Origin: a virus
Length of the DNA stretch: 33,310 bases
IMG/VR virus record: IMGVR_UViG_3300032242_002994
Location: 1-33,310 of that record
Direction: 5' to 3' (one strand)
The notes beneath the pieces are model-generated. The model saw nothing but the letters and a program-made list of their open reading frames with translations. It had not been told where the DNA came from and ran no database searches. The translations under genes and the position numbers were made by a program. Numbering within the stretch: position 1 is the stretch's first letter; each line of letters begins with the position of its first letter. Positions 16,973 to 32,048 of this stretch are shown piece after piece.

Positions 16973-18208
16973 ATGCCATTATTAGGAACAACAGGTGGTT
17001 CGAGAGAACTAACAGGATCAGGTGGTTACCACCCAGGCGTCGGGCCACAAGATACATCCGGCAGTAGTGCCAGCGGTGGCCTTGGAACTACTACCATTAA
17101 CGGTAACAGCAGTGCAACAACTGTAACCGGCACAAGAGCAACATACGATCCGTTTTATTCAGGCGCTGTTGTTTACACTATTAGCCTTGGTTCTTTACCT
17201 CCAGGATTTAGTTTAAACTCGAGTAGTGGTGTAGTAACTGGTAGTTATACCGTAGCATCAATCAATGCAGACGGTACTGTATACAGCTTTACAATACGTG
17301 CTACAGATGCTTCAGGTTATAACAGTTACACTGAACGTTCTTATACAATTACATTAAGTGCTCCGTTCCAGTGGCGCCAAATTTTAACCACAGGTTATAT
17401 GCTTGGCGGTTATAAAAATTCAGCACTATGGTCAAACGTTAATAGAATTACAAACTCTACCGATACTACAGTTAACTTAGGTGACGGTAATATTGATAAC
17501 AATCACTACAAAGCAGGCTTCCAAGGTTACAATAAGACCTATGTTCTTAACGGTGGCACAACTACTGCGTTCAATGTACGTACTGAAACTAAATCTAACT
17601 CAGGACAAAACGGTTCTGGTTCAAGTTTGACCGCGGGCGGAACAACATTTAACGAACGTAACTATGGATATTCGATGGGTGGCGGAGTTGGACAATGGTA
17701 TAAATGGCAGTTCAGCACAGAAACTTGGATCAATACACACGGCAACGGATATAACGATAACCAATCAGGACATTCAGGTTCAGATCGCGGCGTACAATGG
17801 GGCGAAGGTAGTCAAACTCAACGTGTTTATTTTCCAACAGATGCTATTGCCAACGTTGCCTCTGCTGCCGCTCACGGTCAGCAAAAGGGACAGCCTGCTA
17901 AATGGGGCTACGGTTACGGCGGCAACGAAGGTTCGTGGGCTGGCGGCAACAACTATCGCAAATTTGCATACAGTAGCGAAACTGTAGTTAGTACACACGG
18001 TCGTCCAGGTGGTTGGGGTATGGGCGAGGAAAATCAAATCATGGGGCAAGACTGGGGTTACATGTTAGGACAACATGATCCAAGCGGACAAAATAACCGT
18101 TCTTATCGTTGGAATTTTTCAACAGATAGTGGATATGTTGGCTCTGGTACTATGGAACCAAAAGGTCAAGCTGGATGTAGTTCAGGATGGGGTGGTTGGA
18201 GAGACTAA
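16973..18208 (+). CDS. Gly-rich fibre protein with Ig-like and kelch-like repeats
   Basis: The start is supported by AGGAGA at 16962-16967. The 411-residue product has a Gly/Ser-rich N-terminus, then an Ig/cadherin-like (He_PIG type) domain at about residues 60-130 with SLPPGFSLNSSSGVVTGSY and FTIRATDASGYNSYT. From residue ~135 there are repeated units with GYxxGG/GYMLGG followed by a W/F-containing strand such as YKWQFSTETW, YRKFAYSSETV and YRWNFSTDSG. These resemble kelch-type blades and would form a beta-propeller. This repeat style occurs in fibre proteins of T4-like aquatic phages. The C-terminus is extremely rich in Gly and Trp. I infer a receptor-binding or tip protein. Confidence 0.75.
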   Translation: MPLLGTTGGSRELTGSGGYHPGVGPQDTSGSSASGGLGTTTINGNSSATTVTGTRATYDPFYSGAVVYTISLGSLPPGFSLNSSSGVVTGSYTVASINADGTVYSFTIRATDASGYNSYTERSYTITLSAPFQWRQILTTGYMLGGYKNSALWSNVNRITNSTDTTVNLGDGNIDNNHYKAGFQGYNKTYVLNGGTTTAFNVRTETKSNSGQNGSGSSLTAGGTTFNERNYGYSMGGGVGQWYKWQFSTETWINTHGNGYNDNQSGHSGSDRGVQWGEGSQTQRVYFPTDAIANVASAAAHGQQKGQPAKWGYGYGGNEGSWAGGNNYRKFAYSSETVVSTHGRPGGWGMGEENQIMGQDWGYMLGQHDPSGQNNRSYRWNFSTDSGYVGSGTMEPKGQAGCSSGWGGWRD

Positions 18209-18245: not shown

Positions 18246-19151
18246 ATGAATCAACTTAGCAATTATACAGATAATTTACACGAAAAATACAAGAAGTTTG
18301 ACACCGAGCATGAGGTCATTACTATTTCCGATGAATTGTCAGCGGAAGATCGGTCATTAGTTCAAAACGCATTGAATACTACCTTTCTAAATCCAAAGTA
18401 TAAGTTAAAAAACTTTGTTTCTATGGGCAAACTAACGCCGTATGCTACTATTAGACAATGGCTACTGGAACTTAAAACATCAGAAGAAAATTTAGAAACT
18501 ATGGAGTATACTTTTAGAAAATTAAATCTCCAAGTTGAAATTTTAGAGTTACAAATCCAAAGAGAATCTGATATACTACACAAAAAACAACTAGAACTAG
18601 ATTTAGAAAAAATCAAGTACGATCTGCGAGCAAATGAACGTAGAAGAAAAACTCACTATGTAGAACGCAAACAGTATGTAGATTTAATCACCGAATATTT
18701 AGAAGGCCCAGACGGCAAAACTCCTGAAGGTAAGACTTGGTTAGAAGTGTTTGGCGATTCTACAGAAGAAGATCGATGGGAAGAGCATTACTGGACTGTA
18801 CGTTTAGCCCGACAGGCATCTATGGATATAGTATCATATGGCCGCATTAGTGCCGGTAATATGGAAGCTATTAATCAAATGCCTCCTGAACAACGTAATG
18901 AAACTTTAGCATTATCGCACGAAGTTAGTTTACGTTTAGAAGGCTTAAATGAAGGTATACGTCAACAAGTACATCAGCATTTATTAGCTACTGATACTGA
19001 ATATGCTAAAAATAAAAATAAAGTATTAAGAGATCCTACTGAAATTCGTATCGAAGTGGCGAAAGACATGTTAGGCGATCATACAACCGCAGATATTAAA
19101 CCTAAAGAAGAAAATAATCCAGAGGAACTTTTAGATGTATATCGTCCTTGA
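18246..19151 (+). CDS. Hypothetical phage protein with long coiled coil
   Basis: This is a 301-residue, strongly charged protein. Residues about 75-145 form a long predicted coiled coil (heptad-like Leu/Ile with Glu, Lys and Arg, including VEILELQIQRESDILHKKQL), followed by a helical, acidic C-terminal half ending NNPEELLDVYRP. It has no membrane segment, signal peptide or catalytic motif that I recognise. The gene ends 17 bp inside the next gene, so the two products are probably made together. It follows the fibre genes, so a structural, assembly or chaperone role is possible, but no function is assigned. Confidence 0.75.
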   Translation: MNQLSNYTDNLHEKYKKFDTEHEVITISDELSAEDRSLVQNALNTTFLNPKYKLKNFVSMGKLTPYATIRQWLLELKTSEENLETMEYTFRKLNLQVEILELQIQRESDILHKKQLELDLEKIKYDLRANERRRKTHYVERKQYVDLITEYLEGPDGKTPEGKTWLEVFGDSTEEDRWEEHYWTVRLARQASMDIVSYGRISAGNMEAINQMPPEQRNETLALSHEVSLRLEGLNEGIRQQVHQHLLATDTEYAKNKNKVLRDPTEIRIEVAKDMLGDHTTADIKPKEENNPEELLDVYRP

Positions 19152-19701
19152 AACACTAGCCGGAAACGATCTAAGATTGGTTCCCCAAATAGAAATAATG
19201 CCCCAGTATAAGTACTGGGCATTTGAAGTAGCGTTTATAGATCCTTCATACGAAACGTCGGTAGATCTATCCAACATTGTACATAAAATTGTACCCGAAC
19301 ATGTTGCTCGAGCTTGTAAATTTGCCAGCGCAGATCATTCAGATCGATTGGGAATTGTACAAGGTTCGCAAATTCACGAAGAAATGATGCATGCCACGCT
19401 GGAGCATCATCAAAGTAAACCTAAAGTTTACTATCAGATGACTGAACAAGATATTAACGATGCTATAGAATTTTATAAAGTTGTGCTATCGTTAGCATTA
19501 GAAGTACACTACAGAGATCTTCCATCTGATCAAGCTGCCGCTAATGCCGATACTAAATTAGCTTTACAAAATGAAATTGATTCTATAACTACTATCCTGG
19601 AAGCTAGAGAACTAATGCATACAAAATTTGGTACTGCTTCGTCGCATCTGATAGCAGAACAAAATAACTGGGGATCAACACAAGTTCAGTTATCGCAATG
19701 A
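19135..19701 (+). CDS. Hypothetical phage protein, overlapping both neighbours
   Basis: This is a 188-residue protein. The ATG at 19135 lies within the previous gene, with GAGGAA (19122-19127) as ribosome site, and the TGA overlaps the next ATG (ATGA). The N-terminal ~60 residues look beta-rich (MYIVLETLAGNDLRLVPQIE); the rest is mostly helical with many His (HEEMMHATLEHH). No family was recognised. Tight coupling suggests it works with the coiled-coil protein upstream. A metal-binding role for the His cluster is only a possibility. Confidence 0.7.
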   Translation: MYIVLETLAGNDLRLVPQIEIMPQYKYWAFEVAFIDPSYETSVDLSNIVHKIVPEHVARACKFASADHSDRLGIVQGSQIHEEMMHATLEHHQSKPKVYYQMTEQDINDAIEFYKVVLSLALEVHYRDLPSDQAAANADTKLALQNEIDSITTILEARELMHTKFGTASSHLIAEQNNWGSTQVQLSQ

Positions 19702-20333
19702 TAATAACTGACGATTATGTTGAGATAGAGGACTTTCTTCCTCTTGAAACACAGGAACAATTAAAATCTTATCTAACAAGTCCAAAGTTTCCATGGGCAA
19801 TGAGTCTTGATTCTGTTGACGGCGGCAGAGTAGGTTGGTCAGGCCCTGATAAAAATTTAAATAACATAGATAGTAATACGGCAGTAGGATTCTATCATAC
19901 ATTTGTTTATAAAAGCGAAATTTGTTCAGATCATGCTAATGCGGTAGGATGGATAATGAACGGATTCGAACAAGCGACTGGCGCCCGAGTTTTAATAGAT
20001 AAACTAGACAGAATACGTGCAGGTTTATTTACTAAGCATCCAAGTGTTGATCCACATAAACCGCATGTTGATGCACCATTTCCTGACTATTGGTCAGCAC
20101 TATACTATGTAAACGAGTGTGACGGTGATACCATACTGTATAATCAGACATATCCAAACATAAAATTAGAGGATGTTGATAACACAACCTTTACGATCAA
20201 ACATCGTTTCAAACCAGCTCAAGGCAAGTTAATCGCCTTTGACGGAAAATATTACCACTCTAGTAGTTTTCCCACCCAACAACCATATCGTCTTGCTATC
20301 ACATTTAATTTCTTCCGACGCAAACTAGCTTAA
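19698..20333 (+). CDS. Putative Fe(II)/2-oxoglutarate-dependent oxygenase
   Basis: The 211-residue product fits the double-stranded beta-helix oxygenase fold. H123-x-D125 (in KPHVDAPF) and distal H187 (KYYHSSSFP) would bind iron, and R198 (QPYRLAI) would bind 2-oxoglutarate. The preceding strand pattern (YWSALYYVNECDGDTILY) and GKLIAFDGKYYH are typical of the fold. Members couple 2-oxoglutarate decarboxylation to oxidation, usually hydroxylation, of a protein, nucleic acid or small molecule; the substrate here is unknown. The start overlaps the previous stop (ATGA). It is the first oxygenase of the island, separated from the next gene by 29 bp. Confidence 0.85.
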   Translation: MIITDDYVEIEDFLPLETQEQLKSYLTSPKFPWAMSLDSVDGGRVGWSGPDKNLNNIDSNTAVGFYHTFVYKSEICSDHANAVGWIMNGFEQATGARVLIDKLDRIRAGLFTKHPSVDPHKPHVDAPFPDYWSALYYVNECDGDTILYNQTYPNIKLEDVDNTTFTIKHRFKPAQGKLIAFDGKYYHSSSFPTQQPYRLAITFNFFRRKLA

Positions 20334-20336
20334 ATA
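20329..20336 (+). promoter_or_regulatory. Late-promoter-like box CTTAAATA
   Basis: CTTAAATA overlaps the stop of the preceding oxygenase gene and lies 26 bp upstream of the 20363 ATG, with GAGGA at 20353-20357 between. This is the only non-overlapping junction before the eight-gene overlapping run, so it is the best candidate for that run's own promoter. It resembles phage late promoters but is unproven. Confidence 0.4.
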
Positions 20337-20362
20337 CTCAGCTAGTAACTCTGAGGATTAAC

Positions 20363-20956
20363 ATGATAGAAGATTTCATCGGCATTTTTGACAATGCTAT
20401 CACACCAAAAGAATGTAAAAACTTTATAGAATATTTTGCTAGATTAAAAACTATGAATTTAGTATTTGATCGCCAAACATTAGGAGATGGTGCTCCACAC
20501 GATCGTAATGATGATACTGCATTTATATTAGAACCGGATTGTGTAGAACTTACATTCGGAAATCCTGCTATGGATCCAATGATAACAGCATTTTGGAAAG
20601 GCTATAGAGAGTATATTGAACACTATAGTATCCTAACAGATGGTTGTGATAAACACGGTTTGTGGAGTATTAGATTACAACATACTAAACCCGGCGGCGG
20701 ATATCATCGATGGCATTACGAACAAGGAGCATCTGAAGTATCTCGAAGATTTATAGCATGGATGATTTATCTTAACGATGTTGAAGAAGGCGGTGAGACT
20801 GAATTCCTATATCAAAAACGTCGCGTACAAGCTAAACAAGGAAGATTGGTCATGTGGCCTGCGGCATTTACGCACACTCATCGAGGAAATCCTCCTTTAT
20901 CCGGCGACAAATATATACTAACGGGTTGGTTAGAATTCATGGGTAATTCAAAATGA
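20363..20956 (+). CDS. Putative prolyl-4-hydroxylase-like 2-oxoglutarate/Fe(II) oxygenase
   Basis: The 197-residue product carries GGGYHRWHYEQG, with H118-x-E120 as the probable iron-binding pair (H115 is an alternative first His). The distal His is in FTHTHRGNPP (H171 or H173), and K/Y in SGDKYILTGW is a plausible 2-oxoglutarate contact. The core IAWMIYLNDVEEGGETEF is typical of P4H-like oxygenases, common in T4-like phages. Glu in place of Asp in the H-x-D motif is less usual but chemically acceptable. Ribosome site GAGGA at 20353-20357. Its stop overlaps the next ATG, opening the continuous overlapping gene run. Confidence 0.87.
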   Translation: MIEDFIGIFDNAITPKECKNFIEYFARLKTMNLVFDRQTLGDGAPHDRNDDTAFILEPDCVELTFGNPAMDPMITAFWKGYREYIEHYSILTDGCDKHGLWSIRLQHTKPGGGYHRWHYEQGASEVSRRFIAWMIYLNDVEEGGETEFLYQKRRVQAKQGRLVMWPAAFTHTHRGNPPLSGDKYILTGWLEFMGNSK

Positions 20957-22629
20957 TAACTCCAAAAAAAATATTCAGCATACCATTAAATTTTAAACTG
21001 TCACAAGTGCAGTTTAATCATTTTTACGAGTTCTGCCAGCGTAACAAAGACTGGATTGCTGATATCTATTTTACAAGTCGTATGGCTCCTTTTAAACAAG
21101 ATGCCATGGGTGATGTATTTTTAGTGGAGGAAGAATCAGATATTACTATCGAAGCCGCACTAAACATACAAAAAACTTTAGGTATTCCAATAAGCGCAAC
21201 ATTTAATAACATCTCAGTTCCTCCTACGCAGACTAATTTAGATACATTTATTATCAATTTTAAAAAATTATACGATGCAGGTGTACGAATAGCTACGATT
21301 CCACATACACACTGGGTTGCGACCGGGCAAATACAGCGAGCATTTCCTGAATTATATATTAAAAATACAATCCTACGCGATGTCAGAACAGCAGTCGAAG
21401 TAGTAAATCTAGCCAAATATGGATTTAACTATATTAATCTTGATAGAGATCTAATGCGAGATCGCGATACATTACTACGTTTGAAAGAAGCCAAAGTTTG
21501 GATTAAGCAACATCTAGGCAAGGATATACAATTTAGTTTATTAGCAAATGAAGGTTGCTTAGGTGCATGTTCTATGATGACTGAACATTTTGAATATAAT
21601 AATTCAAGATCAAATACCCAACCACAATATTTTAATGATACAATCAGTCGGGTTAGTTGTCCTAAATGGGACGTGCAAGATCCGTCAGTTGCATTAAAAA
21701 CTGCTAATTTCAGTCCATGGAAAGACGACTGGGATGAATATTTAGACTTGGGAATCGATGTGTTTAAAATGCACGGCCGCGAAAGTGTACAACGACTAGT
21801 GGAAACTATGAATTTAATCGAAAGATATGTTGCAGGAGAAGATATATTAGATGTTTCTTTTGTAAAATGGTCAGACGATACTGGTCTAACTGGTAGACCG
21901 ATTAATGCATGGCGCGAAAAAATTAAAAACTGTAAATTTGACTGCTGGGAATGTCAGTATTGCGATAATATCTACGAAAGAAAAACAGATATTGGCCACA
22001 GCAATCTAACTAAATTTACAGCAGAGTGTATCAGTACCTCTGGAATTCCTACCGTGCATAATAAAATTCCAGGTCTAACAAGTCCCCGTGTACAAACACT
22101 ATTAAATTCTCTTGCTAGCGGTGTTAGTAGTTATTTAGAAATAGGCAGCTATTTAGGCGCCACTGCTTGTGCGGCTTTAAAAGATAATCCATTAAATGCT
22201 TATTTTGTCGATAACTGGCAACAACCTGTACAACCACAACGCGGTGATATAAAACTACCCGCTAACGATCGAGCAGAATTTGAAAAAAATATCAAAGAAT
22301 ACAAAGGTAACAGTAATGTAACAATTTACGATACTGATATGTTTGATGTTAATATTTTTGAAATGAAAGATCAGATACAACTGTTCTTCTACGATGGTCC
22401 ACATGATTTTGAAACCACTCGGCAGGCAGTCATGTATTACTATCCTACATTTGCTAAAGAGGCTATTCTAGTATTTGATGATGCTAACTGGCAAGGAGTA
22501 GTCGATGGCGCCGCAGTTGGTTTACAAGAAGCTGGCGCACAACTGGTTTATGAAAAATTAATGTTAAACTCTGAAGAAAATTCTCGAGAATGGTGGAACG
22601 GTTTATATATTGTGGTCATTAGAAAATGA
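20953..22629 (+). CDS. Fusion: U32-peptidase-like domain + class I SAM methyltransferase
   Basis: This is a 558-residue two-domain protein. Residues ~1-340 resemble the TIM-barrel-like U32 peptidase family, with NEGCLGACSMMTEHF (C202, C206), C236 and a Cys-rich NCKFDCWECQYC (C327, C331, C334, C337). Some U32 members (UbiU, UbiV, TrhP, RlhA) bind [4Fe-4S] and act in hydroxylation of ubiquinone precursors or RNA rather than proteolysis. Residues ~385-558 are a methyltransferase: SSYLEIGSYLGATACAAL (SAM loop) and FFYDGPHDFETT...VFDDANW, like Methyltransf_24. I infer a modifying enzyme with an Fe-S module; the substrate is unknown. It overlaps both neighbours by 4 bp. The U32 assignment is weaker than the methyltransferase one. 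Confidence 0.72.
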   Translation: MITPKKIFSIPLNFKLSQVQFNHFYEFCQRNKDWIADIYFTSRMAPFKQDAMGDVFLVEEESDITIEAALNIQKTLGIPISATFNNISVPPTQTNLDTFIINFKKLYDAGVRIATIPHTHWVATGQIQRAFPELYIKNTILRDVRTAVEVVNLAKYGFNYINLDRDLMRDRDTLLRLKEAKVWIKQHLGKDIQFSLLANEGCLGACSMMTEHFEYNNSRSNTQPQYFNDTISRVSCPKWDVQDPSVALKTANFSPWKDDWDEYLDLGIDVFKMHGRESVQRLVETMNLIERYVAGEDILDVSFVKWSDDTGLTGRPINAWREKIKNCKFDCWECQYCDNIYERKTDIGHSNLTKFTAECISTSGIPTVHNKIPGLTSPRVQTLLNSLASGVSSYLEIGSYLGATACAALKDNPLNAYFVDNWQQPVQPQRGDIKLPANDRAEFEKNIKEYKGNSNVTIYDTDMFDVNIFEMKDQIQLFFYDGPHDFETTRQAVMYYYPTFAKEAILVFDDANWQGVVDGAAVGLQEAGAQLVYEKLMLNSEENSREWWNGLYIVVIRK

Positions 22630-24137
22630 AAATTAACAAAGTAAAAAACATAATAGTTTTCGGTGGTGGAACTAGCGGATGGTTAACTGCGGCTTATATT
22701 ACTAAGAATTTAAAATTTCCCTGTAATGTTACACTGATAGAAAGTACAGAAATGGGTCCTATCGGCGTCGGTGAAGGAACGCAACCTGCTACAGCTAAAT
22801 TCTTATATGACTGCGGGATAGATCCATTAACATGGATGAAACCTAGCCAGGCAAGTTTCAAACTAGGTGTAGAATTCGTAGGATGGACTGATAAAGATTA
22901 TTTTGTGGATAACGATTTTATTGAAAATACTGTAATCGCACCGGATTTGTTTACTATCGATTATTTTATGGGTAAGAACAAGTCAGAATTTATTGACTGG
23001 TTACCGGCATATCAATTAGCTAAAGAAAATAAAAGCCCTAAGCTAGCAGGATTAGATACTAACTTTGCTCATACCGGTGCAAGACAATTCGGTGCTGTAC
23101 ATTTCTCAGCATATGATATCGTCGCGGCCATTAAAGACATTGTACTTGATAAAATTTCATATGCAAACACTAAAATTGTCGACATACATTCTGATGATAA
23201 TGGTATAACTGGATTAACTGGCGAGGATGGTAACACATATACTGCTGATTTGTACATCGATTGTAGTGGATTTAATTCACTATTATTAGAGAAGACTTTA
23301 AAAGTACCATTTGTTTCAGTTAATGATATATTACCATGTGACAAAGCAGTAGTATTACAAACACAATATACAGATCCTGTTTCGGAATGTTTTCCATATA
23401 CTCGTGCAACAGCAATGACAGCCGGTTGGCGGTTCACTATTCCGGTGTTTACTAGAATAGGAAATGGTTACGTTTACAGTTCGAAACACATTAGTTCCGA
23501 AGATGCAGAAGCTGAACTCAGAGCTAGTGTTAACGAATATACTGCACCTGCAAAACATTTGAATATGAAATGCGGAATACACGAATCTGTTACTAGTAAA
23601 AATGTAATAGCTGTAGGATTAAGTGCAGGATTTGTCGAACCACTAGAAGCTACCGGGATAACATTTACTACTAAAGCCGTTGAATTGCTTACTGATGGAC
23701 TAAATGCAACACAGGGATTATGGAGTAACGCAGTACAGCGAGAAATTAACAAATTATACGACGAAATGTTCTGGGAAATTATAGCATTTGTATGGTCTCA
23801 CTATCAATTTAGTACGAAGAAAGACACTCCTTTCTGGAAAGATGTCCATAAGGAAAATTTAGACTTGCTTCCTCCAAAAGTTTCTGCTATAATTAACAAG
23901 TTCCTACCTGAACCACACAGAGATTTTTTAATATCGCCGCTATCCAGTTTTCATACAGGGCAATGGTTTAGTGTACTGAACGCCGGCGATGTTTATAAAA
24001 ATAATAAACAGACATTATTTGGTGATATTGAAAAATATGCAGAATTTTTCATTAAAAATCAATCATATAGAACAGAGTTAATTAAAGAAATGTTTCCTAA
24101 TCATTATGAATTTTTAAAAGAGTGGTATAATCGGTGA
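22626..24137 (+). CDS. Flavin-dependent tryptophan-halogenase-like protein (copy A)
   Basis: The 503 residues match family size. The N-terminal FAD-binding motif is FGGGTSGW (residues 12-19). K79 in ASFKLGVEF sits where the catalytic Lys of PrnA and RebH lies, and E341 in FVEPLEATG matches the catalytic Glu. The usual WxWxIP is W-R-F-T-I-P here (268-273), and the Ser normally following the Glu is Ala (A342). Family members use FADH2, O2 and halide to make HOCl or HOBr that halogenates an aromatic substrate. Two changes at conserved positions mean the substrate or reaction may differ. A partner flavin reductase is not visible in this window. It overlaps both neighbours by 4 bp. Confidence 0.87.
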   Translation: MKINKVKNIIVFGGGTSGWLTAAYITKNLKFPCNVTLIESTEMGPIGVGEGTQPATAKFLYDCGIDPLTWMKPSQASFKLGVEFVGWTDKDYFVDNDFIENTVIAPDLFTIDYFMGKNKSEFIDWLPAYQLAKENKSPKLAGLDTNFAHTGARQFGAVHFSAYDIVAAIKDIVLDKISYANTKIVDIHSDDNGITGLTGEDGNTYTADLYIDCSGFNSLLLEKTLKVPFVSVNDILPCDKAVVLQTQYTDPVSECFPYTRATAMTAGWRFTIPVFTRIGNGYVYSSKHISSEDAEAELRASVNEYTAPAKHLNMKCGIHESVTSKNVIAVGLSAGFVEPLEATGITFTTKAVELLTDGLNATQGLWSNAVQREINKLYDEMFWEIIAFVWSHYQFSTKKDTPFWKDVHKENLDLLPPKVSAIINKFLPEPHRDFLISPLSSFHTGQWFSVLNAGDVYKNNKQTLFGDIEKYAEFFIKNQSYRTELIKEMFPNHYEFLKEWYNR

Positions 24138-24730
24138 TAACACAAGCATGTATATTCAGAGCAGATTTATTTACTAAGGCCGATGTAGGAACAGTTGAAC
24201 AACGATTGGCTCTTGTTGATCAAATTCGTACTGCTAAAAAAGAAGATCCTATCGGAGTTAGTAGATCGAATGATGGATGCTGGAGGAAAAACTTCGACGA
24301 GCAATATCCTTTAGAGAATGCAGACTGGTTACATAGCGAAATTAACGAACTATTAGTACAAGCAGTAAAGTTTTACAGCGCAGAAGACCACATATATGCT
24401 AAAATTAATAGATCCGACAACGTAACGGTTACATGTTGGGCCAATATTAACCAACCTGGTAGTAGAAATTCCTATCATAGCCATAAGGGGAATCACTATG
24501 TTGCATTGTATTATCTGCAAGGAACTACTACCGGGGATTTAATACTGGCTAATCCTGCAAATGTACTAGCAGATTGTAATCTCGATGCTCCGTATACGCA
24601 TGATATGGCATTTTCTCCTAAGGATGGAGATTTAATTTTGTGGCCGGCTTGGGTGCCTCATGAAGTAGAACCTAACTTATCACAACGAGAAAGAATTAAT
24701 ATTGCATTTAATATTAACATTAAATCATGA
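24134..24730 (+). CDS. Putative 2OG-Fe(II) oxygenase, 2OG-FeII_Oxy_5-like
   Basis: The 198-residue product begins with GTG at 24134, overlapping the previous TGA; no in-frame ATG near the start fits better. Motifs: SYHSHKGNHYVALYYLQG with H115-x-H117, DGDLILWPAWVPHEVEP with distal H176, and an Arg in QRERINIAF. The H-x-H rather than H-x-D is typical of this family (TIGR02466/PF13759 style, common in aquatic phages). Its chemistry is not well characterised. It lies between halogenase A and the unassigned 247-residue protein. Confidence 0.8.
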   Translation: MITQACIFRADLFTKADVGTVEQRLALVDQIRTAKKEDPIGVSRSNDGCWRKNFDEQYPLENADWLHSEINELLVQAVKFYSAEDHIYAKINRSDNVTVTCWANINQPGSRNSYHSHKGNHYVALYYLQGTTTGDLILANPANVLADCNLDAPYTHDMAFSPKDGDLILWPAWVPHEVEPNLSQRERINIAFNINIKS

Positions 24731-25470
24731 GAACTTTAGAATTTTTTAATACAATTACCGGAGTAGCTGATACTTTTCCTGTTATTAAATCGGGGGAATA
24801 TAGACCCACCTGGATTAAAACTGCCAAAGATGCTTACAATATTAAAAAAGAAAAGATGGATGGCGATAAGTTTTTTCATGTATATCGATGCCCAGGTATT
24901 TTTGATCTGATGGGATATGGTTATATTGTTACAGCGCCTTGGGATGTTGAAGTTGAAACAAACGGCGATGGAGAAGATTTCCGCTGGCGTGTCCCTGACA
25001 TTCCAGAAATCACTGCACTATTAGAAGATCAACCGGTTGCAGGACATATGGCTGACGCTATTGCAGATTCATTACCACGTCGCCCTGGTCGTTTAAAATC
25101 TGTAATTAAACTAACTACAGGGTGGAATATAATAGCACCTCCGGGTATTAAATTTTTAATCATTCCTATTTCTTATCCTGATAGTTATGAGTTTGAAAGT
25201 GCTCCGGGAATATTAGATCCAGGACTAAGTACAGAATTGAATGCACAATTATTCTGGTATGTACCGAATGGTAGACATGTTATTAAAGCCGGAACACCGT
25301 TGTTTCAATTAATACCCATGACAGACGAATCTTTTAATATAGTAGTTAGAAACGCCACTGATAAAGATAGAGAATGGGTTAAGCGCCGTAGATACTTTAT
25401 CGGTATCAGTTTTAAACCACAGCGAGCTTTATTGAAAAAAGTATACAACCGTATATGGGGTAAAAAATGA
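24727..25470 (+). CDS. Unassigned protein, possible dUTPase-like beta-barrel
   Basis: The 247-residue product has no signal peptide or membrane segment. It resembles small proteins I associate with DUF6065, but I cannot confirm this. The C-terminal half has GWNIIAPPGIKFLI, then GILDPG (from residue ~161) and later VIKAGTPLFQLIPM. The order DPG, beta strand, N, I-x-x-G-x-x-L-x-Q-L recalls the trimeric dUTPase/dCTP-deaminase fold, where the last strand reads like GDRIAQL. The catalytic residues of those enzymes are not evident, so a structural likeness is all I propose. It sits mid-operon with 4-bp overlaps on both sides, implying a role in the same process as the halogenases and oxygenases. 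Confidence 0.7.
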   Translation: MRTLEFFNTITGVADTFPVIKSGEYRPTWIKTAKDAYNIKKEKMDGDKFFHVYRCPGIFDLMGYGYIVTAPWDVEVETNGDGEDFRWRVPDIPEITALLEDQPVAGHMADAIADSLPRRPGRLKSVIKLTTGWNIIAPPGIKFLIIPISYPDSYEFESAPGILDPGLSTELNAQLFWYVPNGRHVIKAGTPLFQLIPMTDESFNIVVRNATDKDREWVKRRRYFIGISFKPQRALLKKVYNRIWGKK

Positions 25471-26081
25471 ACTCAAGACTAGTTTCGTTATTTCCGACTC
25501 CTTTATACTCTTGCGAATTACCTGTAACCGATTTACATAAACAACTAGTGCGCAAGTTAAAATGTAGTCGTCTCGGCGGTGTATGCAATATATCCGATAA
25601 CAAGTTTGTTTTAGATACAGAAGGATTCGCCGATTTAAAACAGATGATCGATATAGAAGTACAAGAGTTTGGAAAAAACGTTTTTAGTCCTAATGAAGAC
25701 GTTAAATTTGTTTTAAAAAATTCTTGGATTATGGAAAATTTACCCGGTGATTATAACTCCAGTCATTTTCATGTTAATAGCCTTATAAGTGGAATAATAT
25801 ATATCGATGTTAACGAAAAATCCGGTAATATAATATTTCACAAAAATATAAACAATCTACATGCAGGCATGTTAGATTTGGGTGTAACAAACTATAATAT
25901 TTTTAATTCATCAGATTTTACAATTACACCAGTAGAAGGACAGTTATTAGTATTTCCCAGCACATTATTCCATCGTGCAAGTATAAACGAATCTGATAAA
26001 ACTAGATATTGCATAGCTTTTAATTATTTTATTACAGGAACATTGAATAAAAACGGCCCCGAGGAGTTAACAATACTATGA
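25467..26081 (+). CDS. Putative 2OG-Fe(II) oxygenase, 2OG-FeII_Oxy_5-like
   Basis: The 204-residue product starts SRLVSLFPTPLYSCELP, the FPTP(L/I)Y opening typical of this family. Motifs: SWIMENLPGDYNSSHFHVNS with H100-x-H102, SGIIYI, EGQLLVFPSTLFHRASI with distal H169, and an Arg in TRYCIAFNYF. The expected role is iron- and 2-oxoglutarate-dependent oxidation of an unknown substrate. It overlaps the genes on both sides (ATGA) and directly precedes halogenase B, so it may act on the same substrate. Confidence 0.82.
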   Translation: MNSRLVSLFPTPLYSCELPVTDLHKQLVRKLKCSRLGGVCNISDNKFVLDTEGFADLKQMIDIEVQEFGKNVFSPNEDVKFVLKNSWIMENLPGDYNSSHFHVNSLISGIIYIDVNEKSGNIIFHKNINNLHAGMLDLGVTNYNIFNSSDFTITPVEGQLLVFPSTLFHRASINESDKTRYCIAFNYFITGTLNKNGPEELTIL

Positions 26082-27664
26082 TAAAACCTGTAAACACTAT
26101 TACTATTGTAGGCGGCGGCAGTGCCGGCTGGATGACAGCGGCAATGTTAATTAAAACATTTCCAGATAAAGTTATCACAGTTATCGAAAGCCCAGACATT
26201 CCTATTGTGGGTGTGGGTGAAAGTACTATCGGACAATTTAAAGATTATACAGATTATTTAGGTATAGACGAAAAAGATTTTATGGAGTTTACAGATGCCA
26301 GTTATAAACTCAGTATTAAATTTACAGACTTTTATGAAAAAGATGCCGGCGGGTTTCATTATCCGTTTAGTGTTCCAGTACTAGAAGGCACTGAACAAGG
26401 TATACACGATTGGTTTTATAAAAAAGCCTTATATCCAGATACTCCTGTGCAAGATTTTGTAGATTGTTATTATCCATCATCTCCGTTACTTAAAACAAAC
26501 AAGTTTACACTTAACCAGCATGGTAATTTTGATAGTTTTAATCCAAAGTATCATAGCGCATATCACTTTGACGCAACTAAGTTCGGTGCATGGTTGCGTG
26601 AAAGATATTGTATCCCCCGCGGAGTTAAGCATGTTCAGAATGAAGTTAAATTTGTACAAACAGGTGCCAAGGGTGTTGAATATTTGTTAATGCAAGACGA
26701 TACAGAACTCACCGCTGATTTATTCATCGACTGCACTGGATTTAAAAGTTTACTATTAGGCCACGCACTAAACGAAGAATTTGAAAGTTATGCCGATATG
26801 TTGCCTAACAATAGAGCATGGGCAACTCGTGTTCCATACCAAGATAAAGAAAAAGAATTAGAACCATATACTAATTGTACTGCTATCGATCATGGGTGGT
26901 GTTGGAATATTCCGCTGTGGTCGCGCATCGGTACGGGTTATGTTTATAGCGACAAGTATGTTACACCAGAACAAGCGTTAGAGGAGTTTAAACAGTACCT
27001 TATGAGTGATAAGGTTACTTGCCCTAAGACAAGAGAACAAGTAGATGCACTAGAATATAAAGATATTCCTATGAAAGTAGGAATCCATAAACGCACCTGG
27101 GTAAAGAATGTAGTAGCGATAGGACTAAGTGCTGGATTTATTGAACCGTTAGAAAGTAACGGACTGTATAGTGTCCATGAATTTTTATGGTCGTTAATAA
27201 AAACTCTCCAACGACCTGCGGTAACACGTTGGGATATAGATGTTTACAATGCAACTATCTTACAGATATTTAGAAATTTTGCAGAATTTGTAGCATTGCA
27301 TTATGCATTAAGTATTCGTAACGATACTAATTATTGGCAAGCTAACAATGATAGAGTTTATAGTCCGGGATTAGATCGAGTAGTGCCGCAGCCTTTCTTT
27401 GGATTTTATGATCTAGCACATAGAAAAATGATTACTGGCAACGTACCTCTTGATGCAGGTATTACACGAATCGCCGCAGGTATGAATTATCCTATTTTAG
27501 ATGCTGTTACTATTGCTTATGAACAAATTCGTAAAGAAACTCCATATGCAGAAAAGTTTGCCAAAAGTTTCGAGACATTTGAAAAGAAAAAAGCATGGTG
27601 GAAGAAAAGTGCAGAAAGTGAACTTACACTTTACGAATATTTGAAAAGAATGTATGGACATTAA
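26078..27664 (+). CDS. Flavin-dependent tryptophan-halogenase-like protein (copy B)
   Basis: The 528-residue product keeps the family signatures: VGGGSAGW (11-18) for FAD, catalytic-type K77 in ASYKLSIKF, a canonical W274-C-W276-N-I-P279, and E359-S360 in FIEPLESNG matching the Glu-Ser pair of PrnA and RebH. It should therefore be competent for flavin-dependent halogenation of an aromatic substrate, with FADH2 supplied by a host or phage reductase. It is clearly diverged from copy A, so a tandem duplication just before this point is unlikely. The gene overlaps the previous one by 4 bp and the next by 11 bp. Confidence 0.9.
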   Translation: MIKPVNTITIVGGGSAGWMTAAMLIKTFPDKVITVIESPDIPIVGVGESTIGQFKDYTDYLGIDEKDFMEFTDASYKLSIKFTDFYEKDAGGFHYPFSVPVLEGTEQGIHDWFYKKALYPDTPVQDFVDCYYPSSPLLKTNKFTLNQHGNFDSFNPKYHSAYHFDATKFGAWLRERYCIPRGVKHVQNEVKFVQTGAKGVEYLLMQDDTELTADLFIDCTGFKSLLLGHALNEEFESYADMLPNNRAWATRVPYQDKEKELEPYTNCTAIDHGWCWNIPLWSRIGTGYVYSDKYVTPEQALEEFKQYLMSDKVTCPKTREQVDALEYKDIPMKVGIHKRTWVKNVVAIGLSAGFIEPLESNGLYSVHEFLWSLIKTLQRPAVTRWDIDVYNATILQIFRNFAEFVALHYALSIRNDTNYWQANNDRVYSPGLDRVVPQPFFGFYDLAHRKMITGNVPLDAGITRIAAGMNYPILDAVTIAYEQIRKETPYAEKFAKSFETFEKKKAWWKKSAESELTLYEYLKRMYGH

Positions 27665-28232
27665 ACTTTTTAATCCTACACCTATTGCTAAAGTTCAAGT
27701 TGATCGAGATACGATTAATAAAATTGACCAATTAAGCGTTAGTTTATTTTCTAAATCTTCTATTACCGAAGATTATCCCGAAACTAACACTACACTGACA
27801 TTACGTGGCGGAGAACAGCGCCGAGTTTTACCGGAAGAATGGCTTGTTAACTGGATTGAAACCCAGGCAAGAGAGTTTCAATTAAAAAGTGAAGTATGGC
27901 CTACTAATTTAATACCTAAACTTGCAAATTGTTGGACTATTGCTCAACCTGAACACAGTTATCAAGTAACGCATACACATCCGCACGGTTCTATCTCGGG
28001 AAATTTATATCTGGAAATTCCAGAATTTAAAGACAACAGTCCGGCGACAGATGGTTGTATAAGTTTTCAGTTGAATCCACCGTCTGTAGATATGACAAAA
28101 TTCATTCATATTAAACCTACAGTAGGCTGTATGTTAATTTTTCCTAGCTGGTTACCGCATCAAGTGTACCCGTGGCAAGGAGCAGGCATGCGCAGAGTAC
28201 TAGCCTGGGACTGTCAGCTCTTGCCCCAATAA
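27654..28232 (+). CDS. Putative 2OG-Fe(II) oxygenase, 2OG-FeII_Oxy_5-like
   Basis: The 192-residue product opens IKLFNPTPIAKVQV and has VTHTHPHGSISGNLYLEIP (H107-x-H109; H111 nearby), then GCMLIFPSWLPHQVYPW with distal H169 and Arg in MRRVLAWD. It overlaps the end of halogenase B by 11 bp, making it the last gene of the overlapping run. Its 3' end overlaps the convergent oxygenase by 19 bp. The substrate is unknown. The family call rests on the HTHP...SG...YL and FPSWLPH pattern. Confidence 0.84.
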   Translation: MDIKLFNPTPIAKVQVDRDTINKIDQLSVSLFSKSSITEDYPETNTTLTLRGGEQRRVLPEEWLVNWIETQAREFQLKSEVWPTNLIPKLANCWTIAQPEHSYQVTHTHPHGSISGNLYLEIPEFKDNSPATDGCISFQLNPPSVDMTKFIHIKPTVGCMLIFPSWLPHQVYPWQGAGMRRVLAWDCQLLPQ

Positions 28233-28744
28233 GTTTTATCAATTTCTTTAGCACCTATAGCAGGCCTTCTATCGTATCGCCAATCAGCGAATGGACCATT
28301 AGCATCTACCCAATGTAAAAATACTTGAGTACATCCGGTTCCAGTATACTCTTCTCGCCAATGTGTTACTTCTATGCCAGGATAAAGTATTGCATCTCCT
28401 TGTTGTAACAACACTGGATCGTGATTTTCAAAACATAACGGCCATGTTTCTCCGCTAACGCACAGACTCATGCTAATTTCACAAGCATTTCTGTCAGTAT
28501 GGGGAGGCATTGTTGCTCCTGTGTAGTATATTCTACAATAACTATAGGTAGGATATAACTCTTTACCTACTATTGCACTAACAGTTTTAGTCAACGATAG
28601 TAATAAATCTTCAGTTGCGGGCAAAGCATACGCACTAAAACTTTTTGGGACTAGTTTATCCCCAAAAGGCCGCTCGTATTTTTTAATATTCAACGCTAGT
28701 TGATCGCATATTTCAACAGAGACTAGATTAGATAAAATTTTCAT
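28214..28744 (-). CDS. Putative 2OG-Fe(II) oxygenase on the opposite strand
   Basis: The 176-residue product has H82-x-D84 in MPPHTDRNACEISMSLCV and distal H128 in YPGIEVTHWREEY, with LLQQGDAILYPG between, as in 2-oxoglutarate oxygenases. Unlike its neighbours it keeps the classical H-x-D and belongs to a different subgroup. It is the only minus-strand gene inside the island. Its 3' end overlaps the upstream oxygenase by 19 bp, and its start is 28 bp from the divergent next gene. It may be a separate acquisition. No strong ribosome site was seen (ACAGG lies just before the ATG). Confidence 0.83.
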   Translation of the reverse strand: MKILSNLVSVEICDQLALNIKKYERPFGDKLVPKSFSAYALPATEDLLLSLTKTVSAIVGKELYPTYSYCRIYYTGATMPPHTDRNACEISMSLCVSGETWPLCFENHDPVLLQQGDAILYPGIEVTHWREEYTGTGCTQVFLHWVDANGPFADWRYDRRPAIGAKEIDKTYWGKS

Positions 28745-28751
28745 CGCCTGT

Positions 28752-28768
28752 TATTTACACCATAAATA
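28752..28768. promoter_or_regulatory. Divergent TAAATA boxes forming an inverted repeat
   Basis: TATTTACACCATAAATA contains TATTTA and TAAATA as a perfect 6-bp inverted repeat with a 5-bp spacer. It fills the 28-bp gap between two divergent oxygenase genes. Read outward, each arm gives a late-promoter-like box (CATAAATA on plus, TGTAAATA on minus) only 4 and 7 bp from the respective ATG. If these are promoters, the transcripts would be nearly leaderless. An operator or chance AT-rich sequence is also possible. Confidence 0.35.
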
Positions 28769-28772
28769 TCTC

Positions 28773-29351
28773 ATGACAATAGAACATTGGTTTTCTACCC
28801 CTATATTTGCTCATGATCTTACTGGAGATAATCTGGAAGACGTGCAGAATGAAATATCGACCTGCATTGAACAAGCACGACACGTATCTTTAACTACAAA
28901 AACACAGTGGGGAGATAGTGTTGCTACAACATTCGATGGCAAAAATGATATCAACATTTACAAATTGGAACTATTAACTGATTTTTTGTTTAGTGCAGTC
29001 GATGAATACATTAAAAATATACAGTATAACGGTCCTGAATTTGAATTAGCGGAATCTTGGTTTAACTTTTACAGCAAAGATGGGTTTCAATATGACCATA
29101 CACATCCAGGCTATAGGGTATCTGGAATATATTACTATTCTACTAACGGAGAAGACGGCAGTGTAAGATTTCAAAATCCCAATGCTTGCATACACGGTCA
29201 TTTGTTCCCGGCAGATGGATCGTCGGCAGAATCAGTTTCATATTCACCTAAGGTAGGAAGGCTATTATTATTTCCTAGCTGGTTAGTACATAGAGTTAAT
29301 AAAAATACTACGGATCACGAACGTATCAGCATAGCGATGAATTTCAAATGA
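28773..29351 (+). CDS. Putative 2OG-Fe(II) oxygenase, 2OG-FeII_Oxy_5-like
   Basis: The 192-residue product opens IEHWFSTPIFAHDL, confirming the start at 28773 even though no Shine-Dalgarno sequence precedes it. Motifs: YDHTHPGYRVSGIYYY with H109-x-H111, GRLLLFPSWLVHRVNKN with distal H173, and Arg in HERISIAMNF. This is one of the clearest members of the family in the window. The stop overlaps the next ATG (ATGA), so the two oxygenases form a short coupled pair. The substrate is unknown. Confidence 0.87.
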   Translation: MTIEHWFSTPIFAHDLTGDNLEDVQNEISTCIEQARHVSLTTKTQWGDSVATTFDGKNDINIYKLELLTDFLFSAVDEYIKNIQYNGPEFELAESWFNFYSKDGFQYDHTHPGYRVSGIYYYSTNGEDGSVRFQNPNACIHGHLFPADGSSAESVSYSPKVGRLLLFPSWLVHRVNKNTTDHERISIAMNFK

Positions 29352-29869
29352 CACATACTTTTGTAAAAGATATCACTTTATTAGAACTGACTGCTAGGCA
29401 ATATAAATTATCAGGCTTAGATCACGATTTACTAGCAAAAGAAGTACTAGCTCACATGGCGGATCGTTTGAGTGACGATCCAAATAGTGGACTAATTGAA
29501 GATAGTGTGTTAGAAATACCCGAAGGTAGTGAAAGTCGGCGTTTAGTAGCTATGGTAGATGAGATAGCGAAAACCAAAGACATGCACACTACAAGTCAGT
29601 GGGGACAAATACACCGTCCATTAGAAAGTACAAATACACATCATCACGGAACCAGTCCGTTCGCATGGGTATATTATGTACAAGTGCCTCCAGGCGCGGG
29701 AGATTTAACATTTTGGTTTTTAGATAGGTTTAGATTTAGTATAAAACCTATTGAAGGTAACCTGATACTATTCCCTGGTTGGATGAATCATAGTGTGGGG
29801 AAAAATCGAAGTAATTATATCCGGATCAGTATCGCCGGAAATTTGACTCAAGCTAGTTTAACTCCATAA
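29348..29869 (+). CDS. Putative 2OG-Fe(II) oxygenase, short divergent member
   Basis: The 173-residue product has NTHHHGTSPFAWVYYVQVP (H98-H99-H100 at the iron position), GNLILFPGWMNHSVGKN with distal H148, and Arg in YIRISIAGNL. The order of motifs matches the preceding gene, to which it is coupled by ATGA, but the overall sequence is distant. The family usually has HTHP here; the HHHG variant may alter iron binding. It is the last gene of the island before the membrane-protein pair. Confidence 0.77.
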   Translation: MTHTFVKDITLLELTARQYKLSGLDHDLLAKEVLAHMADRLSDDPNSGLIEDSVLEIPEGSESRRLVAMVDEIAKTKDMHTTSQWGQIHRPLESTNTHHHGTSPFAWVYYVQVPPGAGDLTFWFLDRFRFSIKPIEGNLILFPGWMNHSVGKNRSNYIRISIAGNLTQASLTP

Positions 29870-29909: not shown

Positions 29910-30956
29910 ATGGAATTCATCACAAATGTCCTGCTAAAGGACATATCATACTTATGGATGATATTCTTCATTATGATCACTGCTGGACTAGCAAAAGAGT
30001 ACGCTCTTTTCGCCCCGGCATTCGCCTATGTAAGAAATACATTCCGTAGTAACAAGTTTGTAGTTGTACTCCTAAGTGCGATTGGCGGTATCCTGCCAAT
30101 CGAAGGCCGAGTTACTGTGTCAGCAGGTTTGCTTGATACAGTTGCACCGAAAGAAGGCCCCGGCCGCGAGAAGTTAGGCATTGTAGACTATCTAGCAACG
30201 CATCACTATTATATGTGGTCACCGCTAGAGAAAACTGTAATCCTACCAATTGCGGCATTTGGTCTGACTTATGGTGCATTTATTGGCCTAGTTGCACCCT
30301 TGTTAATTGCCAGCTTGCTGTTCATCAGCATCTACATCTGGACGCAAGTCAAAGATGAAGATCTGGTAATTACTCCGGGAAACTTTAAATTGTCAGCAGT
30401 TTTACGAAACGTGCTTCCAATGTTTATCGCCCTTGGCGTTTACATTTGGGCAGGTGGAGAACAACATGTATTTGCAATTTTTGGTCTACTGACCTTATAC
30501 TATGTAATCATTACTCAACAATGGGGCATTAAGAAATTATTGTCTTACGTTCGATGGGATGTTCTAGCATGGGTAGGTGCAGTTATTATCTTAGGCAATT
30601 ACTTCAAGTCTTATAACGGCGAATTTTTAGCTATGATTAAAACCAGTGGATTAGATCCACATACGTTTGTAGGCATGCTAGCAATTTCAGTTATTGGATT
30701 TGTCGTCAGTTTCTTAATGGGGAGTTCGGGTAAGTTTATCGCTGTTGCTGTTTTAATGGCACAAGTGTTTGGCGTAGAATATTTTTTATGGTTCTTTGCT
30801 ATCGATTTTACCGGCTATCTGTTAAGTCCAACGCATAAGTGTGTTATGATTGGTAATCGCTATTTTGGCACACCGGTCAGCACTTATTATAAAGCATTGG
30901 GCGGATGGGGCTTGCTCTTGTTAGCAACTTCTGCTACAATAATATTTTTATTATAA
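29910..30956 (+). CDS. Polytopic inner-membrane protein, DUF401-like
   Basis: The 348-residue product is strongly hydrophobic with about 8-10 transmembrane segments and no cleavable signal peptide. The conserved-looking segment GGILPIEGRVTVSAGLLD, followed by K...VDY...HHYYMWSPLEKT, recalls the DUF401 integral membrane family, thought to be transporter-like; the match is from memory and uncertain. A second repeat-like segment, SFLMGSSGKFIAVAVLMAQ, sits near the C-terminus. It has a strong ribosome site (AAGGAGA) and is 10 bp from the next gene. It is unusual cargo for a phage, and an auxiliary transport role during infection is inference only. Confidence 0.78.
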   Translation: MEFITNVLLKDISYLWMIFFIMITAGLAKEYALFAPAFAYVRNTFRSNKFVVVLLSAIGGILPIEGRVTVSAGLLDTVAPKEGPGREKLGIVDYLATHHYYMWSPLEKTVILPIAAFGLTYGAFIGLVAPLLIASLLFISIYIWTQVKDEDLVITPGNFKLSAVLRNVLPMFIALGVYIWAGGEQHVFAIFGLLTLYYVIITQQWGIKKLLSYVRWDVLAWVGAVIILGNYFKSYNGEFLAMIKTSGLDPHTFVGMLAISVIGFVVSFLMGSSGKFIAVAVLMAQVFGVEYFLWFFAIDFTGYLLSPTHKCVMIGNRYFGTPVSTYYKALGGWGLLLLATSATIIFLL

Positions 30957-30966
30957 AGGAATCACA

Positions 30967-31557
30967 ATGAAAAAAATCTTCGCAATCTTGGCTTTGGCCT
31001 TTACCGCTTCTGCGTTTGCAGAAAACGGTGTTAACTTTGAGTTCGAACGTGAACGTGGTACAGCATCACCTAACACAATGACGAACACAGTCAAAGTAGC
31101 ACCATTTGTCAAATTAGACAACGGTGTAAAACTTGACCTTCAATTCGGTGCAAGCCGTGATGACGGTACAGTTAGTGGTAGCAATAACGCTCTTGAAAAC
31201 ACAGTGGAAGCTCGTGCTCAAAAGTTGTTTGAAGTTTATCCTGGTCTAAAGTTAGGCGCACGTCTTGGCGTTGGTCAAGTTATCAACGGTGTTAACTCTG
31301 CAGGTAAGACTGTAGACTTTGGTTACTACACAGTTGAGCCAAAAGCCGAATATGCTATCAACGAACAATTGAGTGCATTGGCTTCATGGCGCTATCGTGA
31401 TGCGTTTGCTGACAGCAACAACTATCAGACACGTACATGGAAAGCTGGCTTTGGTTTTGCCGCAACTAAGAAAGACGTAGTTGAAGTTAAGTACTTCGAA
31501 AAGCGTGGCGACTCTAATACCAATGGTGTTGAGTTAGGCTATACACGTAGTTTCTAA
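30967..31557 (+). CDS. Outer-membrane beta-barrel protein with signal peptide
   Basis: The 196-residue product begins with a clear Sec signal peptide (MKKIFAILALAFTASAFA, predicted cleavage after A18). The mature ~178 residues show alternating amphipathic strands and end in GVELGYTRSF; a C-terminal Phe is the usual recognition mark for the BAM machinery. Size fits an eight-stranded barrel like OmpX. AAAGGA (30955-30960) precedes the ATG. Phage-encoded outer-membrane proteins could change surface properties, permeability or superinfection by other phages, but nothing here chooses among these. It pairs with the upstream membrane protein and is followed by a terminator. Confidence 0.85.
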   Translation: MKKIFAILALAFTASAFAENGVNFEFERERGTASPNTMTNTVKVAPFVKLDNGVKLDLQFGASRDDGTVSGSNNALENTVEARAQKLFEVYPGLKLGARLGVGQVINGVNSAGKTVDFGYYTVEPKAEYAINEQLSALASWRYRDAFADSNNYQTRTWKAGFGFAATKKDVVEVKYFEKRGDSNTNGVELGYTRSF

Positions 31558-31600: not shown

Positions 31601-32048
31601 ATATTAAGCCAACTAGCTCAAATATTGTTTGTAATTTTGTTCTCATAGCCTTGTTTGAAAAACTATTTTTTAAACCTTGATGTAACGGTTTAGGAGATTG
31701 ATCTAGTATTGCCCATGCCCACGCACTGTGTTCGTCACTTAATACGGGAACAAATTCATCATCGACTAGGCATAGATATGTATGGAAATTGAATACAGCA
31801 TCGTTGCTGACAAATGTTTCAAGCGGAATTGTTTTAATCACATCGGGGAAAGATCCGATTTCTTCGATGATTTCACGCTGTAGCCCCTGCCAAGGATTCT
31901 CACCTTCTATAGTAGTACCACCAACTAGCCCCCAAGTGCCTTGATGTTTACCGTGAGCTTTTTGTAAAAGTAAAAACCTATGAGTATTTCTAGCGTAAAT
32001 TAATGCGCCACTGCATATAATCTTATCTTTTACAATGCTACTCTCCAC
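31599..32048 (-). CDS. Nudix hydrolase
   Basis: The 149-residue product contains the Nudix box from G44 to G65: G44-x5-E50-x7-R58-E59-I-I-E62-E63-I-G65, close to the consensus GX5EX7REUXEEXGU (the last hydrophobic position is Ser). The fold context GTWGLVGG and AWAWAILD is typical. Nudix enzymes hydrolyse nucleoside diphosphates linked to another group, including mutagenic nucleotides, NAD-like compounds or RNA caps; T4-like phages often carry one (T4 NudE). The substrate cannot be read from the sequence. It starts 19 bp inside the end of the gp15-like gene, implying coupled translation. Confidence 0.9.
   Translation of the reverse strand: MESSIVKDKIICSGALIYARNTHRFLLLQKAHGKHQGTWGLVGGTTIEGENPWQGLQREIIEEIGSFPDVIKTIPLETFVSNDAVFNFHTYLCLVDDEFVPVLSDEHSAWAWAILDQSPKPLHQGLKNSFSNKAMRTKLQTIFELVGLI

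Follow-up and report, generated by a model that had tools for sequence, protein, structure and literature searches.

A conserved oxidative and halogenating gene island beside the fibre-type genes of a T4-like phage, with a possible role in fibre maturation

What a T4-like phage does with a run of halogenases and oxygenases packed beside its fibre-type genes is the question raised by IMG/VR virus record IMGVR_UViG_3300032242_002994, a linear record of 33,310 bases (the window, meaning the whole stretch analysed) that represents a fragment of such a phage, an aquatic virus. Positions 19698 to 29869 of the window form an island encoding two flavin-dependent halogenases, eight members of the Fe/2-oxoglutarate (2OG)-oxygenase superfamily, a fusion of a U32-like barrel with an O-methyltransferase (U32-MT), and one gene of dUTPase fold (unk247). 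All of these genes had been listed in a preliminary description made from the sequence alone, and all are present where it placed them. The island is real, conserved, coherent, and probably functional. Its genes, their upstream partners, and the boundary gene are given below.

g411, 16973 to 18208, plus strand: Gly/Ser/Thr-rich protein of fibre-like type carrying a putative Ig domain (PF05345, 2.6e-7; phrog_1417, 6e-28)
g301, 18246 to 19151, plus strand: conserved partner (phrog_1409), with a homologue in 121 phage records
g188, 19135 to 19701, plus strand: small conserved partner, within three genes upstream of U32-MT in 48/61 loci
oxA, 19698 to 20333, plus strand: oxygenase, H123-x-D125...H187...R198 (phrog_274 and weak PF13640), site invariant in 32/32 relatives
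oxB, 20363 to 20956, plus strand: prolyl-4-hydroxylase-like oxygenase (PF13640, 1.4e-12), H118-x-E120...H173...K183
U32-MT, 20953 to 22629, plus strand: U32-like TIM barrel (about residues 3-282), then O-methyltransferase (365-558) (phrog_1458)
halA, 22626 to 24137, plus strand: flavin-dependent halogenase (PF04820, 2e-95), catalytic K79/E341, WRFTIP variant of WxWxIP
oxC, 24134 to 24730, plus strand: oxygenase-fold protein (PF13759, 1e-16), HxH...H...R
unk247, 24727 to 25470, plus strand: dUTPase-fold protein (phrog_7084), motif-III-like GILDP kept, motif II absent
oxD, 25467 to 26081, plus strand: oxygenase-fold protein (PF13759, 3.5e-21), HxH...H...R
halB, 26078 to 27664, plus strand: flavin-dependent halogenase (PF04820, 2.5e-106), catalytic K77/E359, WCWNIP
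oxE, 27654 to 28232, plus strand: oxygenase-fold protein (PF13759, 1.9e-17), HxH...H...R
oxF, 28214 to 28744, minus strand: oxygenase, H82-x-D84...H128 (phrog_2954), HxD...H invariant in 13/13 relatives
oxG, 28773 to 29351, plus strand: oxygenase-fold protein (PF13759, 3.6e-21), HxH...H...R
oxH, 29348 to 29869, plus strand: oxygenase-fold protein (PF13759, 3.3e-13), HxH...H...R
gp15-type tail sheath stabiliser, 32030 to 33301, minus strand: boundary gene (PF16724, 3.1e-13) that marks the fibre-to-neck location

The order and content of this cassette recur in dozens of IMG/VR phages. At least 508 relatives of U32-MT and at least 393 of unk247 are found in IMG/VR, and the loci analysed were the best 80 hits, which are biased towards relatives of the window and are related to one another, so that the linkage p-values given here overstate independence. 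The recurring order is g411 (one to three copies), g301, g188, (oxA, oxB), U32-MT, (ox), halogenase, oxC, unk247, further oxygenases, NUDIX, and gp15. When 69 distinct U32-MT loci are compared, the six genes upstream include g411 in 59/61 and the three genes upstream include g301 in 54/61, while downstream a halogenase is found within four genes in 37/63, an oxygenase in 46/63, and unk247 within eight genes in 37/63; around unk247, both U32-MT and an oxygenase lie within six genes in 49/51 loci. Genes of the g411 class account for 14.7% of those up to five positions from U32-MT and 1.4% of those further away (p 3e-15), and the corresponding values for halogenases are 7.2% and 0.2% (p 2e-9). 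Linkage of U32-MT, halogenase, oxygenase, and fibre gene beyond chance is confirmed, and it is seen in many diverged contigs. Conserved co-occurrence across phages had been named beforehand as a check to make, and homologues are not scattered. Neither scattered homologues nor a majority of lost active sites, the two outcomes said in advance to count against the island, was found, because homologues co-occur in conserved order and most active sites are intact, and the idea of a functionally coupled block is supported on the same grounds. The genes compared have pN/pS values of 0.09-0.51 with synonymous sites near saturation, and chance or decay as the origin of the island is ruled out by the conserved order, these ratios, and the conserved sites.

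From oxB to oxE (20363 to 28232), eight genes overlap end to end, as had been described, with 4-bp ATGA or GTGA overlaps at six junctions and an 11-bp overlap at the seventh. The chain extends upstream, where g301 and g188 overlap by 17 bp and g188 and oxA by 4 bp (ATGA), with a gap of 29 bp between oxA and oxB; oxF stands outside it because it lies on the opposite strand. In a related locus (L015, 8374-10344), an open reading frame of 656 amino acids encodes a PF04820 halogenase and an oxF-type oxygenase in one chain, and this fusion, together with the 4-bp overlaps, supports coupling of the enzymes; since the two are fused, both chemistries probably meet on one substrate. Another locus (L016, 6965-11205) has a halogenase and an oxF-type gene followed by a carbamoyltransferase.

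The family assignment given in the preliminary description is borne out for both predicted halogenases: they match the PF04820 profile, carry a GxGxxG flavin motif, and have the catalytic Lys and Glu intact, residues that are kept in 75/75 and 74/75 of the aligned halogenase relatives, respectively. The WCWNIP of halB conforms to the WxWxIP motif, and the WRFTIP of halA is a variant common to many of its relatives, variants also being found in known halogenases. The closest solved structure to halB is VirX1 (6qgm, E 1.5e-99), the halogenase of cyanophage Syn10, whose active site is unusually large and accessible and which has no assigned pathway (PMC8407142). The closest PDB entry to halA is 8fov, and halA is nearer to the tryptophan 5-halogenases, with WxFxIP. 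Relatives of halA are also present in the phages collection, in four records of Campylobacter phages and two of human-faecal phages.

All eight proteins previously described as 2OG-type oxygenases belong to the superfamily, but a canonical 2OG site is present in only three of them, because the five PF13759 members have HxH...H...R instead. Six (oxB, oxC, oxD, oxE, oxG, and oxH) were assigned by PF13640 or PF13759 above the gathering score; oxA and oxF were recognised from PHROG profiles combined with metal-site patterns that are invariant. The HxD/E...H metal triad is found in oxA, oxB, and oxF, with R198 of oxA and K183 of oxB as the 2OG-binding basic residues; it is missing from oxC, oxD, oxE, oxG, and oxH, in whose family the second His of HxH is kept in 178/181 relatives and is also aligned in the solved, uncharacterised proteins 3bvc and 2rg4. 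The PHROG names "endonuclease V" (phrog_274, oxA) and "ferrochelatase" (phrog_2954, oxF) look like misnomers, and on cyanophage oxygenase genes such labels are likely a long-standing misannotation. Cyanophage genes so labelled that match island oxygenases include those at L003 13704-14213 and L004 19937-22183.

The proposed U32-methyltransferase fusion is upheld by different means for its two halves. The methyltransferase half matches PF13578, and the U32 half, for which no Pfam match was found, PF01136 included, is recognised by fold. In an AlphaFold2 model (26 sequences, pLDDT 82.6), the N-terminal barrel folds like the U32 protein 5d88 (Z 16.3, rmsd 3.3, 228 aligned, target 247) and the C-terminal domain like the O-methyltransferases 5x7f (Z 16.9) and TrmR (5zw3, Z 15.4). 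Profile comparison of the U32 half with four E. coli U32 proteins, RlhA among them, gives weak, collinear matches, and the seven Cys residues invariant in the 26 sequences (C202, C206, C236, C327, C331, C334, and C337), among which the four that bind [4Fe-4S] in the U32 family would have to be sought, are spaced unlike those of the E. coli proteins. The fused form is the rule in this family, with 146 of 156 members 500-599 amino acids long. Cellular relatives of the U32 half alone overlap type I secretion genes (TolC-like, C39-type ABC, and HlyD) in Campylobacterota metagenome-assembled genomes (L185, 147-5921; L187, 311-6070). Another locus (L186, 2629-5679) has, after a U32-like gene, DUF6445 and a radical-SAM/SPASM gene; most of the models nearest to the latter are peptide maturases, and this gene content makes the locus a possible, uncharacterised peptide-modification locus.

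The model of unk247 (pLDDT 86.8) has a dUTPase fold (3lqw, Z 10.5, rmsd 2.9, 115 aligned; Foldseek E 2e-4). The catalytic motif II (ARSS/RSG), searched by pattern, is absent in 133/134 relatives, so that a normal dUTPase is unlikely, and for unk247 itself a canonical dUTPase identity is rejected because of the missing motif. A motif-III-like GxLD is kept in 114/134 relatives. The family is present in 14 records of cultured phages, and each of these phages also gives halogenase matches.

The reading that we tentatively prefer is that the island serves a T4-like phage as a cassette for maturing its fibre-type virion proteins. A protein substrate is favoured because a fibre-like gene is the neighbour that stays constant. 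Even where cultured cyanophages have no halogenase nearby, U32-MT keeps its place behind this fibre-like set, and many cultured phages with a halogenase likewise carry the halogenase/2OG block after tail-fibre or fibre-assembly genes; both findings support fibre maturation. The halogenase-oxygenase fusion of L015 and the position of cellular U32-half relatives beside secretion genes or beside DUF6445 and a radical-SAM/SPASM gene also favour a protein. The large, accessible active site of VirX1 counts on the same side, and QhpG, a flavoprotein of halogenase fold that dihydroxylates Trp inside a protein (PMC7876137), provides a precedent for such an enzyme acting on a protein substrate. Enzymes made from the overlapping genes next to g411 and g301/g188 would oxidise side chains of the g411 structural protein, with the 2OG-family enzymes hydroxylating the fibre-type protein and the halogenases halogenating (or oxidising) its aromatic residues. 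U32-MT would add an oxygen that its fused O-methyltransferase may then cap, unk247 could be a non-catalytic or repurposed helper, and g301 is possibly an assembly or adaptor protein; the phage might benefit through the binding range or stability of its fibres. Of the three targets suggested at the outset (a small molecule, a host component, or the virion proteins encoded upstream), the last fits the evidence best. The analysis establishes the families, the catalytic residues of the halogenases and of three oxygenases, the conserved linkage and order, and the folds of U32-MT and unk247; we infer that the substrate is a protein, namely g411 or a neighbouring fibre, as well as the reaction order and the benefit. 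The full claim, that the virus halogenates, hydroxylates, and O-methylates its own host-recognition fibres through an unusual U32-hydroxylase/O-methyltransferase fusion and 2OG-fold oxygenases of a three-histidine type, is doubtful.

Several observations weigh against fibre maturation. Trp is not enriched in g411 proteins of halogenase-bearing contigs (2.38 vs 2.23%, p 0.35), Tyr is slightly lower there, and that g411 is a virion protein at all is something we infer. The halogenase-fibre link is not universal, since the halogenases of Syn1 and S-B64 are not next to fibre genes and that of HTVC008M adjoins terminase, and other stand-alone relatives of the U32 half adjoin CRISPR type III or sulfate-assimilation genes (L188 and L183; sequences read by eye). 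Collagen-like repeats (G-X-Y runs) are absent from the window and occur in only 13 of 1792 neighbouring open reading frames of at least 200 amino acids, and a collagen substrate for prolyl hydroxylases is rejected on this basis.

The main rival is a small-molecule pathway, in which a halogenated, hydroxylated, and O-methylated metabolite (a defence molecule, a signal, or a modified pigment) would be made in the infected cell. The island resembles the tailoring genes of natural-product clusters in composition, its methyltransferase half is by fold close to O-methyltransferases that act on small molecules and catechols, VirX1 accepts many free aromatics for halogenation in vitro (PMC8407142), and antibiotic protection through PrnA has been proposed for phage halogenase (PMC2984593; PMC9964418). 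Such breadth does not, however, reveal the native substrate of VirX1, the island is linked to fibre-like genes and not to metabolism, and no scaffold-forming gene (polyketide synthase, nonribosomal peptide synthetase, or terpene synthase) is present among the window genes searched. With the Trp and Tyr comparisons negative and three lines of evidence favouring a protein, fibre maturation is therefore kept as the preferred, if tentative, reading, and small-molecule tailoring is regarded as unlikely. It is quite improbable that the enzymes instead modify surface or envelope proteins of the host, for example to block superinfection, together with the DUF401 membrane protein and the small outer-membrane barrel protein, the latter with what appears to be a signal peptide, that directly follow the island (29910-31557). 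Besides this adjacency, U32 relatives adjoin secretion genes and DUF401 comes after unk247 in many contigs without a halogenase, yet DUF401 is about equally frequent near U32-MT and further away (2.3% and 2.2%) and the barrel protein is found in few loci. Each of the two proteins is 93% identical to its counterpart in L007/L013, and dS of the barrel gene is 0.35 between the window and L013, against 1.1-3.3 for most cassette and neighbouring genes, as if it had been exchanged independently of most of the cassette. The host search found no relative of the outer-membrane protein among GTDB genomes.

If U32-MT is considered by itself, it could be a fused hydroxylase/O-methyltransferase that acts on tRNA in the manner of TrhP1/TrhP2 and TrmR of Bacillus subtilis, separate proteins that form ho5U34 and then mo5U34 (PMC6599085). 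The same two folds and the same logic are involved, and TrmR/YrrM is also the best PDB sequence match of the methyltransferase half (5zw3, E 0.0025). This explanation is nevertheless very unlikely, given that hhalign comparison of the U32 half with TrhP, RlhA, UbiU, and UbiV is weak (probability 58% at best), that PF01136 is unmatched, that the Cys pattern differs, that U32-MT is linked to fibre genes in a window without tRNA, and that the halogenases and eight oxygenases are left unexplained. Scarcely credible is a metabolic drain, in which many 2OG enzymes shift 2-oxoglutarate or nitrogen signalling or serve DNA repair, as was proposed for the 2OG genes of phages (Sullivan 2010; PMC3037559); it predicts neither the halogenases, nor U32-MT, nor a fixed order behind fibre genes, and five of the oxygenase-fold members are without the HxD/E site. 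Tests of these published roles (antibiotic protection, 2OG signalling, and repair) were not found in the literature.

The window ends with the T4-type tail sheath stabiliser on one side and, upstream of the island, with giant Thr/Ser/Gly-rich fibre-like open reading frames of 1826 and 3397 amino acids on the other. Cultured phages gave no near DNA-level match to the window, an Rfam search of it returned no match, and it contains no tRNA. The T4 late-promoter-like string TATAAATA occurs 0 times in the window against 5.9 expected from dinucleotide shuffles, a possible avoidance, and among T4-type late-promoter strings near the cassette it is absent and CTAAATA is at or below chance.

The island bears on two questions, namely what viral halogenases such as VirX1 act on natively and what the many 2OG genes of aquatic T4-like phages are for, and a block that ties the enzymes to fibre-type genes makes the native role of viral halogenases experimentally testable. 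Should fibre maturation prove true, the phage's own fibres would be the native substrate of halogenases such as VirX1, aquatic viruses would be found to practise oxidative and halogenating post-translational tailoring of receptor-binding proteins, and the cassette would be a source of new halogenases and of an unexplored three-His oxygenase family.

Among known enzymes, halB is closest to VirX1, whereas halA is closer to the tryptophan 5-halogenases. The peptidyl-Trp maturation flavoproteins QhpG and LodB are halogenase-like, as are the proteins encoded here, but halB retains the halogenase Lys/Glu and WxWxIP, and its similarity to QhpG is weak, below the NCBIfam cut-offs. TrhP1/TrhP2 and TrmR pair a U32 hydroxylase with an O-methyltransferase in one pathway, as U32-MT may do; U32-MT differs in being fused, remote in sequence, and set among other neighbours.

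The preliminary description knew of no phage system of this composition, a view that does not survive comparison with cultured phages. The parts of the cassette have been known as genes since at least 2010, as documented by the tabulation of prnA and 2OG genes in T4-like phages (PMC3037559), by a second report (PMC2984593), and by cultured phage records. In the Kyanoviridae fibre-side block (syn9/Syn10, S-RIM44, P-TIM40, and S-CREM1), one or two PF04820 halogenases, the unk247 family, and several oxygenases are found together as in the window, behind tail-fibre or fibre-assembly genes in syn9, S-RIM44, P-TIM40, and S-CREM1, with many of the oxygenase genes annotated as endonuclease V, ferrochelatase, or minor coat protein. 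An unk247 homologue lies about 1.8 kb from the halogenase match in Syn10 and likewise in syn9, and in S-RIM44 the halogenase/2OG block is followed by gp13-gp15. In S-CREM1 (L190, 7645-17124), a collagen-like protein is encoded two genes ahead of the halogenase, which is followed by an unk247 homologue and nine oxygenase/JmjC genes. The island shares the defining features of this block, sitting between fibre-like and neck/tail-completion genes and containing halogenases, an unk247 family member, and several 2OG genes, but in those parts of the Kyanoviridae genomes that were read, the halogenase does not have U32-MT and g411/g301 next to it. The converse holds for the U32-MT module of T4-like cyanophages (T4-GC351-354; P-SSM4, Syn19, and P-HM2), in which a fibre-like gene, g301, U32-MT, and often oxA stand in a row as in the window, but with no halogenase or unk247 beside U32-MT; P-RSM1, S-RIM12, and ACG-2014j also carry the fibre-like set and U32-MT without an adjacent halogenase. 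The g411 class (phrog_1417) is labelled "sericin 1 precursor-like" in cyanophages, and a P-HM2-like phage contig (L180) is filed in a Dehalococcoidia metagenome-assembled genome. The window thus unites the U32-MT/fibre-like set with the halogenase/unk247 block, in an order common to its IMG/VR relatives, and the island is a variant of a known phage gene block and not a new category.

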